From: Oleisolibacter albus
Lineage (GTDB): Bacteria > Pseudomonadota > Alphaproteobacteria > Azospirillales > Azospirillaceae
Assembly (NCBI RefSeq): GCF_003336875.1
Contig: NZ_QGNJ01000004.1
Span: 186,001-250,000, forward strand
Direction of reading: 5' to 3'
DNA: 64,000 nucleotides
Notes under the pieces: model-generated
The model's input: the letters and a program-made list of their open reading frames with translations, nothing else
What the model was told of the DNA's origin: nothing
Database searches by the model: none
Program-made: the position numbers and the translations under genes
In this document: in pieces, positions 21,778-24,874 of the stretch
How the letters are laid out: every line of letters starts with the position of its first letter
How positions within the stretch are numbered: the first letter of the stretch is position 1

Positions 21778-23124
21778 TCAGTGGACGGATTCGCCGTGCA
21801 GGGCGATGTCCAGCCCGTCGCGCTCCGCCTCCTCGTCGACACGCAGGCCGATGGTGAACTTGATGGCGTAGAGGATGGCCGCGGTCAGCACCGCCGTGTA
21901 GATCACGGTGAAGCCGACGCCCTGCACCTGGAGCCACAGCGCGCCGGCATTGCCCTCCAGCAGGCCCAGGGTGGTGGCGGGGTCCTTCTCCAGCGCGGCG
22001 GCGAAGGCCCCTTCGCTGTTGGCCACGGCGATCTTGGCGAAGACACCGGTCAGCAGCGCGCCGACAATGCCGCCGACGCCATGCACGCCGAACACGTCCA
22101 GGCTGTCGTCATAGCCCAGCGCATGCTTCAGGCTGGTGGAGGCGAAGTAGCAGATGATCGAGGCCACAGCGCCGATGATCAGCGCACCGGTGCCGTCGAC
22201 GAAGCCCGCCGCCGGGGTGATGGCGACCAGACCGGCCACGGCGCCGGTGATGATGCCCAGCACCGAGGGCTTCCGCTTCACGGCCCATTCCACGAACATC
22301 CAGGCCATCGCCGCGGCGCCGGTGGCGATCTGGGTCACGGCCATGGCCATGCCGGCGCGCGGGCCGGCAGTCACCGCCGAGCCGGCGTTGAAGCCGAACC
22401 AGCCCACCCACAGCAGCGAGGCGCCGATCAGCGACAGAACCAGATTGTGCGGGGCGAAATCGCCGTTGGGATAGCCCTTGCGCTTGCCGATCACCAGGCA
22501 GGTCACCAGCCCGGCGATGCCGGCATTGATGTGGACCACGGTGCCGCCGGCGAAGTCGAGCACACCCAGCTGGAAGAAATAGCCGGTGGGGTGCCAGACG
22601 GCATGGCAGATCGGCACATACACGATCAGCGACCACAGGGCCGCGAAGACCATCAGCGCCGAGAACTTCATGCGGTCGGCAAAGGCGCCGGTGATCAGGG
22701 CCGGGGTGATGATGGCAAAGGTCATCTGGAACATCATGAACACCGACTCCGGAATGGTCGGTGCCAGCGCATGCGTCCCTTTCGGGTCCAGCCCGGCCAG
22801 GAAGGCCCGGTCAAGCCCGCCCAGGAAGCTTCCCCCGTCGGTCAGGGCCAGGCTGTAGCCCAGGACGAACCAGAGAACGGTCACCAGGCAGCAGATGGCA
22901 AAGCTCTGCATGACCATCGCCAGCACATTGTGCTTGCGCACCAGGCCGCCATAGAACAGCGCCAGGCCGGGAATGGTCATCAGCAGCACCAACGCCGTCG
23001 AGGTCAGCATCCACGCCGTGTCGCCACCGCTGATGGTCGGACCGGCGGGGGCATCCTGGGCGAGGGCCACGCCCGGAACCAGCGCCAGGCACGCTGCAAG
23101 GATCAGGTTAGACAGTCGATTCAT
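21778..23124 (-). CDS. amtB: Ammonium transporter
   Basis: This is a 448-residue inner-membrane ammonium channel. A signal-peptide-like start (MNRLSNLILAACLALVPGVALA) precedes 11 predicted helices. Signatures are GGDTAWMLTSTALVLLMTIPGLALFYGGL, DFAGGTVVHINAGIAGL with the first pore histidine, and DDSLDVFGVHGVGGIVGALLTGVFA with the second. The start has GGGGAG 4 bases upstream. No glnK gene accompanies it, which is unusual for amtB, so PII control must come from elsewhere. The upstream region holds an NtrC-type site and sigma-54 elements, consistent with induction by nitrogen limitation. Confidence 0.96.
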   Translation of the reverse strand: MNRLSNLILAACLALVPGVALAQDAPAGPTISGGDTAWMLTSTALVLLMTIPGLALFYGGLVRKHNVLAMVMQSFAICCLVTVLWFVLGYSLALTDGGSFLGGLDRAFLAGLDPKGTHALAPTIPESVFMMFQMTFAIITPALITGAFADRMKFSALMVFAALWSLIVYVPICHAVWHPTGYFFQLGVLDFAGGTVVHINAGIAGLVTCLVIGKRKGYPNGDFAPHNLVLSLIGASLLWVGWFGFNAGSAVTAGPRAGMAMAVTQIATGAAAMAWMFVEWAVKRKPSVLGIITGAVAGLVAITPAAGFVDGTGALIIGAVASIICYFASTSLKHALGYDDSLDVFGVHGVGGIVGALLTGVFAKIAVANSEGAFAAALEKDPATTLGLLEGNAGALWLQVQGVGFTVIYTAVLTAAILYAIKFTIGLRVDEEAERDGLDIALHGESVH

Positions 23125-23189
23125 GTGGCTCCCCATTCTTGTGGGCACGGGGGCCGACCCGGCCGCCGCACACGCCGCCCTGCCTCCTT

Positions 23190-23204
23190 TCAACTTCCGT
23201 GCCG
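23190..23204 (-). promoter_or_regulatory. Weak sigma-54 promoter candidate for amtB
   Basis: Read on the minus strand, CGGCACGGAAGTTGA matches the -24/-12 pattern except that the -12 GC is GA. The spacing is correct, and it lies 66-80 bp before the amtB start. The substitution at a nearly invariant base makes this doubtful. Confidence 0.3.
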
Positions 23205-23288
23205 CGGCGCAAAGCCGCGGATTTCCTGGGGAACCGAGTCGGTGCCGCGTGCTCACTAAGCAGGCAGTTCGGGTGCGCGGGCTGAAAA

Positions 23289-23305
23289 TGCACAAAAATC
23301 GTGCA
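23289..23305. promoter_or_regulatory. NtrC-type enhancer site between amtB and glgC
   Basis: TGCAC-AAAAATC-GTGCA is a perfect 5-bp-arm palindrome of 17 bp. This is the length and core of the NtrC consensus TGCACC-N5-GGTGCA. It sits about 165 bp upstream of amtB and about 150 bp upstream of the sigma-54 promoter facing glgC, a normal enhancer distance for both. Confidence 0.65.
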
Positions 23306-23454
23306 GAAACAGGACGGACGGAAAGTTCCGATTTTCGCGCTCCGGCAACAGTTTAGTTTCAAAATCATGGAAAGCGGCACGGGCCGCCGTGGTGTTCCCC
23401 GGCCTGTGCCGAAACAATAGGCAGATTCCCGGCGCAGTACGGCTCCCCCGGTCG

Positions 23455-23469
23455 TGGCACCGCGCTTGC
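23455..23469 (+). promoter_or_regulatory. Sigma-54 (RpoN) promoter facing glgC
   Basis: TGGCAC-CGCGC-TTGC matches the -24/-12 consensus exactly, with GG and GC separated by 10 bp. It points toward glgC and would give a leader of about 100 nt. No other gene start lies between it and glgC. Confidence 0.65.
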
Positions 23470-23584
23470 GTATTTTTCGCCTGTTGTGCGCTGCGGCACA
23501 GATTGGCCGCGCGTTTGGAAATATGGCAGTCTTACCGCCCGTACCACCGACGGGCGTAACGATGTGATCGGGAGGACTCAAGCA

Positions 23585-24874
23585 GTGCCCAGTATGATGT
23601 CGGATTCACGCCTGGACCAGGAACTGCGCCAGGCCCCCAGGCACGCCCTTGCGCTGGTCCTTGCCGGTGGTCGCGGCAGCCGGCTGAAGCAGCTGACCGA
23701 TCGTCGTGCCAAGCCGGCGGTCCATTTCGGCGGCAAGTTCCGGATCATCGACTTTGCCCTGTCGAACTGCATCAATTCCGGCTTCCGCCGCATTTCGGTG
23801 CTGACCCAGTACAAGTCCCACTCGTTGCTGCGGCACCTTCAGCGCGGCTGGAATTTCCTGCGTGGCGAGATCGGCGAATTCGTCGACATGCTGCCGGCGC
23901 AGCAGCGCATCGACGAGACCAGCTGGTACCAGGGCACGGCCGATGCCGTGTACCAGAACCTGGACATCCTGCGGGTGCATGGGGCCGAATGGGTGCTGAT
24001 CCTGGCCGGCGACCATATCTACAAGATGGACTATGCCAACATGCTGGCCGACCATATCCGCACCGGCGCGGATGTGACCGTGGCCTGCATCGAGGTGCCG
24101 CGCATGCAGGCCACCGGATTCGGTGTCATGCATGTGGATGAGCGCAACCGTGTCGTCAGCTTCCTGGAAAAGCCGGCCGATCCGCCGGCCATGCCGGGCC
24201 GGCCGGACATGGCGCTGGCCAGCATGGGCGTCTACATCTTCAACGCCGCGTTCCTGTACGACCAGTTGGAGCGGGACGCGCGCGATCCCGCCTCCAGCCG
24301 TGATTTCGGCAAGGACATCATCCCCTATCTGGTGCCGCGGGCCACGGTGGTGGCGCATCATTTCAACCAGTCCTGCGTCTATAACCGGGCGCCAGGGTCG
24401 GAGGCCTACTGGCGCGATGTCGGCACGGTGGAGGCCTATTGGGAGGCCAATATCGACCTCTGCCATGTCTCGCCGTCGCTGGACCTCTATGATGCCAGCT
24501 GGCCGATCTTCACCTATCAGGAGCAGCTGCCGCCGGCCAAATTCGTCTTCGACGATGAGGACCGCCGTGGCATGGCCGTGGACAGCATGGTGTCGGCCGG
24601 CTGCATCATCTCCGGTTCCAGCGTGCGGCGCTCGCTGCTGTTCAACAAGGTCCGCATGCATTCCTATTCCGAACTCACCGACACCGTCCTGCTGCCGGAG
24701 GTGGAGGTCGAGCGCAATTGCCGCCTGACCAAGGTGGTGGTGGACCGCGGCTGCCAGATCCCGCCGGGGCTTGTGGTCGGGGAGAATCCGGAGGAGGATG
24801 CCCGTCGTTTCTACCGGTCGGAGAACGGTGTCGTGCTGATCACGCAGGACATGCTGGCGCGTCTCCGCAGCTGA
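23585..24874 (+). CDS. glgC: Glucose-1-phosphate adenylyltransferase
   Basis: GlgC makes ADP-glucose from ATP and glucose-1-phosphate, the committed step of bacterial glycogen synthesis. The 429-residue protein has the nucleotide-binding start [24 protein letters not shown] and [11 protein letters not shown]. It also has [23 protein letters not shown], the sugar-phosphate site FLEKPADPP and a C-terminal beta-helix region. The GTG at 23585 is chosen because GGGAGG lies 9 bases upstream; an ATG three codons later would be too far from it. It is followed by map and glgA on the same strand. The RpoN promoter and NtrC site upstream suggest expression under nitrogen limitation, when excess carbon is stored. 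Confidence 0.95.

Follow-up and report, generated by a model that had tools for sequence, protein, structure and literature searches.

NtrC-activated sigma-54 promoters of proteobacteria, e.g., those of glnK/amtB and glnA, combine a -24/-12 element with palindromes about 120 bp upstream. The NtrC consensus is TGCACN7GTGCA, the sigma-54 consensus includes flanking positions, and the NtrC site pair of E. coli glnA is spaced by roughly 32 bp. There is reportedly also older work on amtB of A. brasilense. The letters of the NtrC consensus were not found in the excerpts of PMC5491218 and PMC4066584. Excerpts of PMC3844500 give sigma-54-bound Salmonella promoters (pspA, pspG and STM0649.S) with TTGT or TTGA at -12, that of pspA reading TGGCACGCAAATTGTATT. 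Vibrio qrr enhancers, whose activator is LuxO, are described as sensitive to the DNA helical repeat (PMC4740811, in part). According to the available part of PMC10274813, NtrC of Caulobacter and Rhodobacter is devoid of GAFTGA, and Rhodobacter capsulatus NtrC is reported to act with sigma-70. The E. coli glgC promoter is described as read by sigma-70 (PMC10819704, in part), and no report of glgC being controlled directly by RpoN was among the matches listed in the open-licence PMC literature.

The amtB-glgC locus described here resembles the glnK/amtB and glnA systems in its -24/-12 element with palindromes about 120 bp upstream, and its genome likewise encodes rpoN and an NtrC with GAFTGA. 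It differs from them in that amtB is divergent from glgC and that 66 of 68 loci have TTGA or TTGT as their -12 element, and from E. coli glnA in that the two main sites lie about 119 bp, not 32 bp, apart. The three Salmonella promoters share the departure at -12, but their genes and activators are different. The helical repeat appears in our data as in the qrr enhancers; there it concerns loop lengths under LuxO, whereas here it concerns the distance between palindromes as well. While E. coli glgC lies inside the glgBXCAP operon, glgC is here divergent from amtB.

The two genes are separated by a gap of 461 bp in a genome of 4.69 Mb, which is near Niveispirillum; the closest named relatives of its glgC are found in Niveispirillum and Azospirillum. 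By the window we denote the whole 64-kb stretch of DNA that was analysed. The start of amtB, the sole amt match in a protein search of the whole genome, was taken as 23124 (minus strand), and that of glgC as GTG 23585, with GGGAGGA upstream and ATG 23594 and ATG 23597 as alternatives. Distances of the NtrC-like sites are given from the predicted transcription start of amtB. The features are as follows.

21778 to 23124, minus strand: amtB, ammonium transporter, 448 aa (NCBIfam TIGR00836, 443.9 bits, cut-off 343.3)
23204 to 23189, minus strand: putative amtB sigma-54-type promoter CGGCACGGAAGTTGAA, a -24/-12 element with TTGA replacing TTGC, predicted start near 23178
23250 to 23266, no strand: candidate third, weaker NtrC-like site TGCTCACTAAGCAGGCA, centre at -80
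23289 to 23305, no strand: NtrC-like site 1, TGCACAAAAATCGTGCA, centre at -119
23407 to 23423, no strand: NtrC-like site 2, TGCCGAAACAATAGGCA, centre at -237
23455 to 23469, plus strand: sigma-54-like element TGGCACCGCGCTTGC, 13.7 bits, would start transcription near 23481
23503 to 23532, plus strand: conserved pre-glgC element with -35 TTGGCC (23503-23508), TATGG (23522-23526) and -10 CAGTCT (23527-23532), predicted start near 23539
23585 to 24874, plus strand: glgC, glucose-1-phosphate adenylyltransferase (NCBIfam TIGR02091, 515.3 bits, cut-off 424.9)

We read this arrangement, with a probability of roughly 0.8, as two back-to-back promoters: an NtrC/sigma-54 promoter for amtB and a separate promoter of sigma-70 type for glgC. 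Under nitrogen limitation, phosphorylated NtrC would occupy the palindromes at -119 and -237, loop to the polymerase bound at 23189-23204 (minus) and then open it, such that amtB is read. Transcription of glgC would come mainly from 23503-23532, and the element at 23455-23469 would most likely be a chance or species-private match that ties glgC to no nitrogen signal. What the sequences show directly is conservation, fixed spacing, an association with amt and not with glgC, and genes for RpoN and for an NtrC with GAFTGA; NtrC binding, looping, the start sites and the sigma factor of each promoter are inferred from these.

Searching 82 genomes of the family, presumably Azospirillaceae judging by the names of the relatives, yielded 80 loci upstream of glgC; G066, where glgC is split across contigs, and G067, with a weak fragment only, were left out. 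A divergent amt gene lies beside glgC in 68 loci, and the other 12 have no amt within reach, one of them (L150) offering only 261 bases 5' of glgC. Among 80 named glgC loci, amt occurs in the examined flanks of 18, all of them Azospirillum- or Niveispirillum-like, and no case of the pairing came from outside the family. Gaps were aligned within the genus and within Azospirillum, using the named loci plus L090 and L094 (seven further gaps are identical to named ones), and in these alignments it is the amt side of the gap that is conserved. Being related, the genomes are not independent of one another.

On the amt side, the motif [CT]GGCA[CT][GC]-N4-TTG[ACT][AT] occurs exactly once per gap on the amt-directed strand, in 68 of 68 gaps. 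Its -24 part reads TGGCACG in 44 loci, CGGCACG in 20, CGGCATG in three and TGGCATC in one; the -12 part reads TTGAA (39), TTGTA (26), TTGCT (2) or TTGAT (1). Thus GG at -24 and TG at -12 are present in fixed register, and in 66 of the 68 promoters, that of the window included, A or T stands where C is expected after TG. A strict GG-N10-GC scan misses CGGCACGGAAGTTGAA because this C is absent. We do not take the C as defining a sigma-54 promoter, since some sigma-54-bound Salmonella promoters do without it (PMC3844500, excerpts). Six matches of the TTGWA variant were found in the own genome, and as four of them (L228, L230, L231 and L232) have no NtrC-like site above 9 bits upstream, the variant by itself does not point to NtrC control.

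The leader of amtB (23124-23180, minus strand) shows unusually strong conservation in the genus-level alignment; an Rfam scan of 22800-23900, which includes this leader, gave no match at E 0.1. AmtB was compared with that of five Niveispirillum-type relatives (L010, L011, L012, L016 and L090); their proteins share 86-99% identity with one another, and the protein of this genome is only 68-72% identical to them. In contrast to AmtB, glgC keeps 84-88% identity within the genus, and the promoter and leader of amtB align well; the coding part of amtB alone may have been replaced or have diverged rapidly in this genome.

The palindromes were scored with a matrix refined on the amt-glgC gaps (threshold 12 bits), site 1 being sought only between -95 and -145 from the predicted amtB start and site 2 beyond -145. 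Under these settings, site 1 reaches at least 12 bits in 68 of 68 loci, at positions from -98 to -140 and in 60 loci from -117 to -121. Site 2 does so in 66; the exceptions are L145 and L178, the latter with 11.5 bits at -236. The median positions are -118 (sd 5.0) and -238 (sd 6.3), respectively, while the distance from site 2 to the glgC start varies freely across loci (sd 32.0). Spacings between the two sites are 108, 116-121, 129, 132, 141 or 151 bp, i.e., deviations mostly fall near whole turns. A Rayleigh test at a period of 10.5 bp, run on distinct values, which is crude and blunts the relatedness of the loci while leaving some of it, gave p 0.0065 for site 1 to start, 0.023 for site 2 to start and 0.013 for site to site. 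At the same period, the distance from site 2 to the glgC start showed no clustering (p 0.67). When TGC-N11-GCA was counted without any matrix, the 100 strict matches included 47 at -117 to -121 and another 24 at -235 to -240. Sixteen further strict matches in the 68 gaps sit exactly at -261 from the predicted amtB start.

In the window the refined matrix gives the two main sites 21.0 and 15.1 bits. We also trained a held-out matrix on the 54 loci outside the genus of the window and three near genera. Across the 64-kb window it ranks 23289 first (20.7 bits), 23407 second (13.8) and 23250 third (11.6), and its fourth match, located elsewhere, has 7.7 bits. The window had no part in this matrix, but the hypothesis did, because position and TGC/GCA ends served to select the training sites. 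The string TGCACN7GTGCA is found at two places in the 4.69-Mb genome, one of them site 1, and at none in the backward control. Site 1 lies within the range of about 70-150 bp upstream of the promoter that excerpts of PMC3844500 give for activator sites.

The palindromes go with amt, since they were not found at the 12 glgC loci without amt and are present at displaced amt genes. Within the 800 bp upstream of these 12 glgC genes (261 bp for L150), palindromes reach 7.0 bits at most, and glgC-directed sigma-54 matches 9.4. In the same genomes amt is found elsewhere, and all 19 distinct places with a close amt have [CT]GGCA[CT]G-N4-TTG[AT]A upstream, and this promoter motif is in turn preceded by a palindrome scoring more than 14 bits, often at a spacing unlike that of the window. 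In this count L214 and L222, two pieces of one broken gene, are taken as one, and L223, L224 and L225 (about 30% identity) as well as L226 (a fragment) are excluded. At L203, where a better-scoring unrelated match also lies upstream, motif and palindrome were located after re-anchoring. Ownership of the palindromes by glgC was considered as a candidate and rejected: their distances are fixed to amtB only, and none was found in the stretches examined upstream of the 12 amt-less glgC genes.

At several displaced genes (L204, L208, L215-L218, L220 and others) palindromes stand at -77/-129/-246, or at about -164/-293 and near -492, which suggests that different amt copies have different enhancer layouts.

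The genome encodes the proteins that such a promoter would need. Its NtrC scores 738.8 bits with TIGR01818 (cut-off 558.6) and carries GAFTGA, and rpoN has one match in the genome. The presence of GAFTGA matters because the Caulobacter and Rhodobacter proteins do without it and that of R. capsulatus is reported to act with sigma-70. Two PII genes add loci that had no part in matrix training, their assignment resting on the best model, as both proteins, scanned without their last residues, fall below the models' cut-offs. The glnK-like gene (L201) is preceded by CGGCACGGTTCTTGTA with palindrome TGCCTAAAAAAAAGGCA at -120, the same layout as at amtB, and the glnB-like gene (L200) by TGGCACAGGGTGTGCT with palindromes upstream. 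As NtrC with GAFTGA and rpoN are encoded and the PII promoters share the motif, NtrC appears to be the best candidate for binding the palindromes. A regulator other than NtrC could instead bind them and control amt; only one of the three window sites, after all, is a full match to TGCACN7GTGCA, and the consensus across the family is less strict and has a centre rich in A and T. Given that the same motif stands upstream of two sigma-54-type PII promoters at untrained loci and that NtrC is encoded, we regard this as very improbable.

A further palindrome, TGCCTAAAAAATGGGCG (19.4 bits; L003:1068-1084, contig C1), was found at the ntrB-ntrC junction, where it overlaps the start codon of ntrC; autoregulation of ntrC through it is possible.

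NtrC/RpoN control of amtB, as proposed in the earlier note, is thus strongly supported by the comparison of sequences and can be called well supported. The same note had described amtB and glgC as divergent from a common region, and both family identities are borne out by the NCBIfam models; its 17-bp NtrC-like palindrome at 23289-23305 is present as TGCACAAAAATCGTGCA. Its amtB sigma-54 candidate, mentioned as weak and given no coordinates, is probably CGGCACGGAAGTTGAA, whose motif is found in 68 of 68 gaps. Site 2 (23407-23423), the third site (23250-23266) and the sigma-70-like element (23503-23532) were not part of that note and are new here.

The situation on the glgC side is different. 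The earlier note had proposed a perfect -24/-12 element at 23455-23469 and an enhancer common to both genes that co-induces glgC. The element TGGCACCGCGCTTGC is indeed present with its core in register. It is not perfect, because the C after TGGCAC and the G after TTGC fail the consensus, and on a hand-set matrix, where a perfect site would have 18.6 bits, it scores 13.7. Conservation of the element in related genomes, named by the same note as a check, is not observed: a counterpart is absent in all 10 other genomes of the genus, where the best glgC-directed scores range from 4.0 to 10.6 bits. As a system conserved among relatives, common co-induction is likewise unsupported: the palindromes are tuned to amtB, and the other 10 genomes of the genus show no counterpart element.

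Throughout the 68 gaps, 13.7 bits in glgC direction are reached only by the window and by L155. A conserved sigma-54 promoter of glgC was therefore rejected: the match of L155 starts inside a different conserved element, TGTGGCAC.

A narrower form of the idea is that in this genome alone a sigma-54 promoter at 23455-23469 was recently added to glgC as its second promoter, with the amtB enhancer serving both genes under nitrogen starvation. We consider this unlikely. The string TGGCACN5TTGC has 20 matches in the genome and four in the backward control, an excess that counts in its favour. For each of 19 matches one mechanically chosen downstream ORF was tested, the 20th being glgC, and six of the 20 have a clear sigma-54 context: flagellar genes (L110, L124 and L125), the PspA family (L113 and L118) and, next to an activator gene, HlyD (L115). 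We also estimated chance with a third-order Markov model that had the window as its training set: it expects a match this strong 0.0022 times on one strand of the 461-bp gap, and about 0.6 times on both strands of a 64-kb window (12 in 2,560,000 strand-bases). L090, the nearest relative, has TGGACAGTCCCGGTTGC at the aligned place; this reads GG-N12-GC and is two bases too long, but may be a leftover or a forerunner of such an element. Moreover, the region around glgC turns over fast, so that a recent gain is hardly contradicted by the lack of the element in relatives.

The flanks of the element are less favourable to such a private promoter. In the six matches with clear context, the base following TGGCAC is always A or G, and the base following TTGC is T in five. 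A C after TGGCAC, as in front of glgC (L119), occurs in five genome matches, and the other four (L109, L116, L120 and L121) have no recognisable sigma-54 context, judged from one downstream ORF each: that of L109 is a squalene/phytoene synthase and the remaining three are without Pfam match. Measured from the start near 23481 that this promoter would have, the palindromes are centred at -66 and -184, each narrowly outside the range of 70-150 bp given in excerpts of PMC3844500, and across loci they keep no fixed distance to glgC, their spacing being tuned to amtB. The excess of 20 over four matches and the location in the gap keep us from rating the private promoter lower; the lack of conservation, the atypical flanks and the amtB-tuned spacing keep us from rating it higher.

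Two separate promoters, our preferred reading, call for another start of glgC transcription, and the conserved pre-glgC element may provide it. Its form is TTGG[CA]C, followed by a spacer of 17 or 18 bp (18 bp in the window) that ends in T[GA]TGG, and then CANNNT. The string T[GA]TGGCANNNT is found at most 220 bp from glgC in 56 of 68 loci; two control stretches each gave 0 of 68. It is also retained in three of the 12 amt-less glgC loci (L148, L149 and L150). In 12 of the 68 loci, nine of them the loci L091-L099 of the genus, the element was not found, hence the glgC promoter there presumably has another form. Judged by form alone against the sigma-70 consensus, the element looks like a promoter of sigma-70 type; searching the own genome for this form with a 17-bp spacer gave 0 matches, and the control 0 as well. 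We also considered TTGGCC...TGTGGCAC as a second sigma-54 -24 element. Sigma-70 appears to fit better, because the -12 part drops TTGC and CANNNT follows a spacer of 17-18 bp.

The glgC leader at 23536-23556 (plus strand) contains a perfect 7-bp inverted repeat, CGCCCGT/ACGGGCG, directly 5' of the ribosome-binding site.

A glgC promoter of sigma-70 type could still be linked to nitrogen if NtrC at site 2 activated or repressed it and the divergent pairing were retained for that link. The pairing is indeed found in 68 of 80 loci, and of the 54 loci where the distance between site 2 and the glgC -10 could be measured, 21 have 101-105 bp. R. capsulatus NtrC is reported to act with sigma-70, and the same was concluded for Caulobacter (PMC10274813, in the part available). 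Against this stand the distances from site 2 to the -10, which span 73 to 220 and show no helical phase (Rayleigh 0.26 for all and 0.9 for distinct values), and the loci L148, L149 and L150, which keep the -10 element without palindromes (L150 within 261 bp only). Furthermore, the own NtrC carries the GAFTGA that is absent from the R. capsulatus and Caulobacter proteins. We therefore hold such a link to be quite unlikely and keep to separate promoters for amtB and glgC.

Nitrogen control of glycogen storage would accordingly be at most a private trait of this genome. If the private glgC promoter were true, it would establish a direct transcriptional link from nitrogen starvation to carbon storage, and glgC would use the old NtrC enhancer of amtB from its other side, an early stage of enhancer sharing. 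For the family, the comparison tells which of two divergent genes owns a control region that looks shared: the NtrC-like sites follow amt and not glgC. The amtB -12 element departs from the consensus in the same way almost everywhere in the family, and the 68 loci form a family-wide natural data set in which the enhancer sites of amtB shift mostly by whole turns of the DNA.
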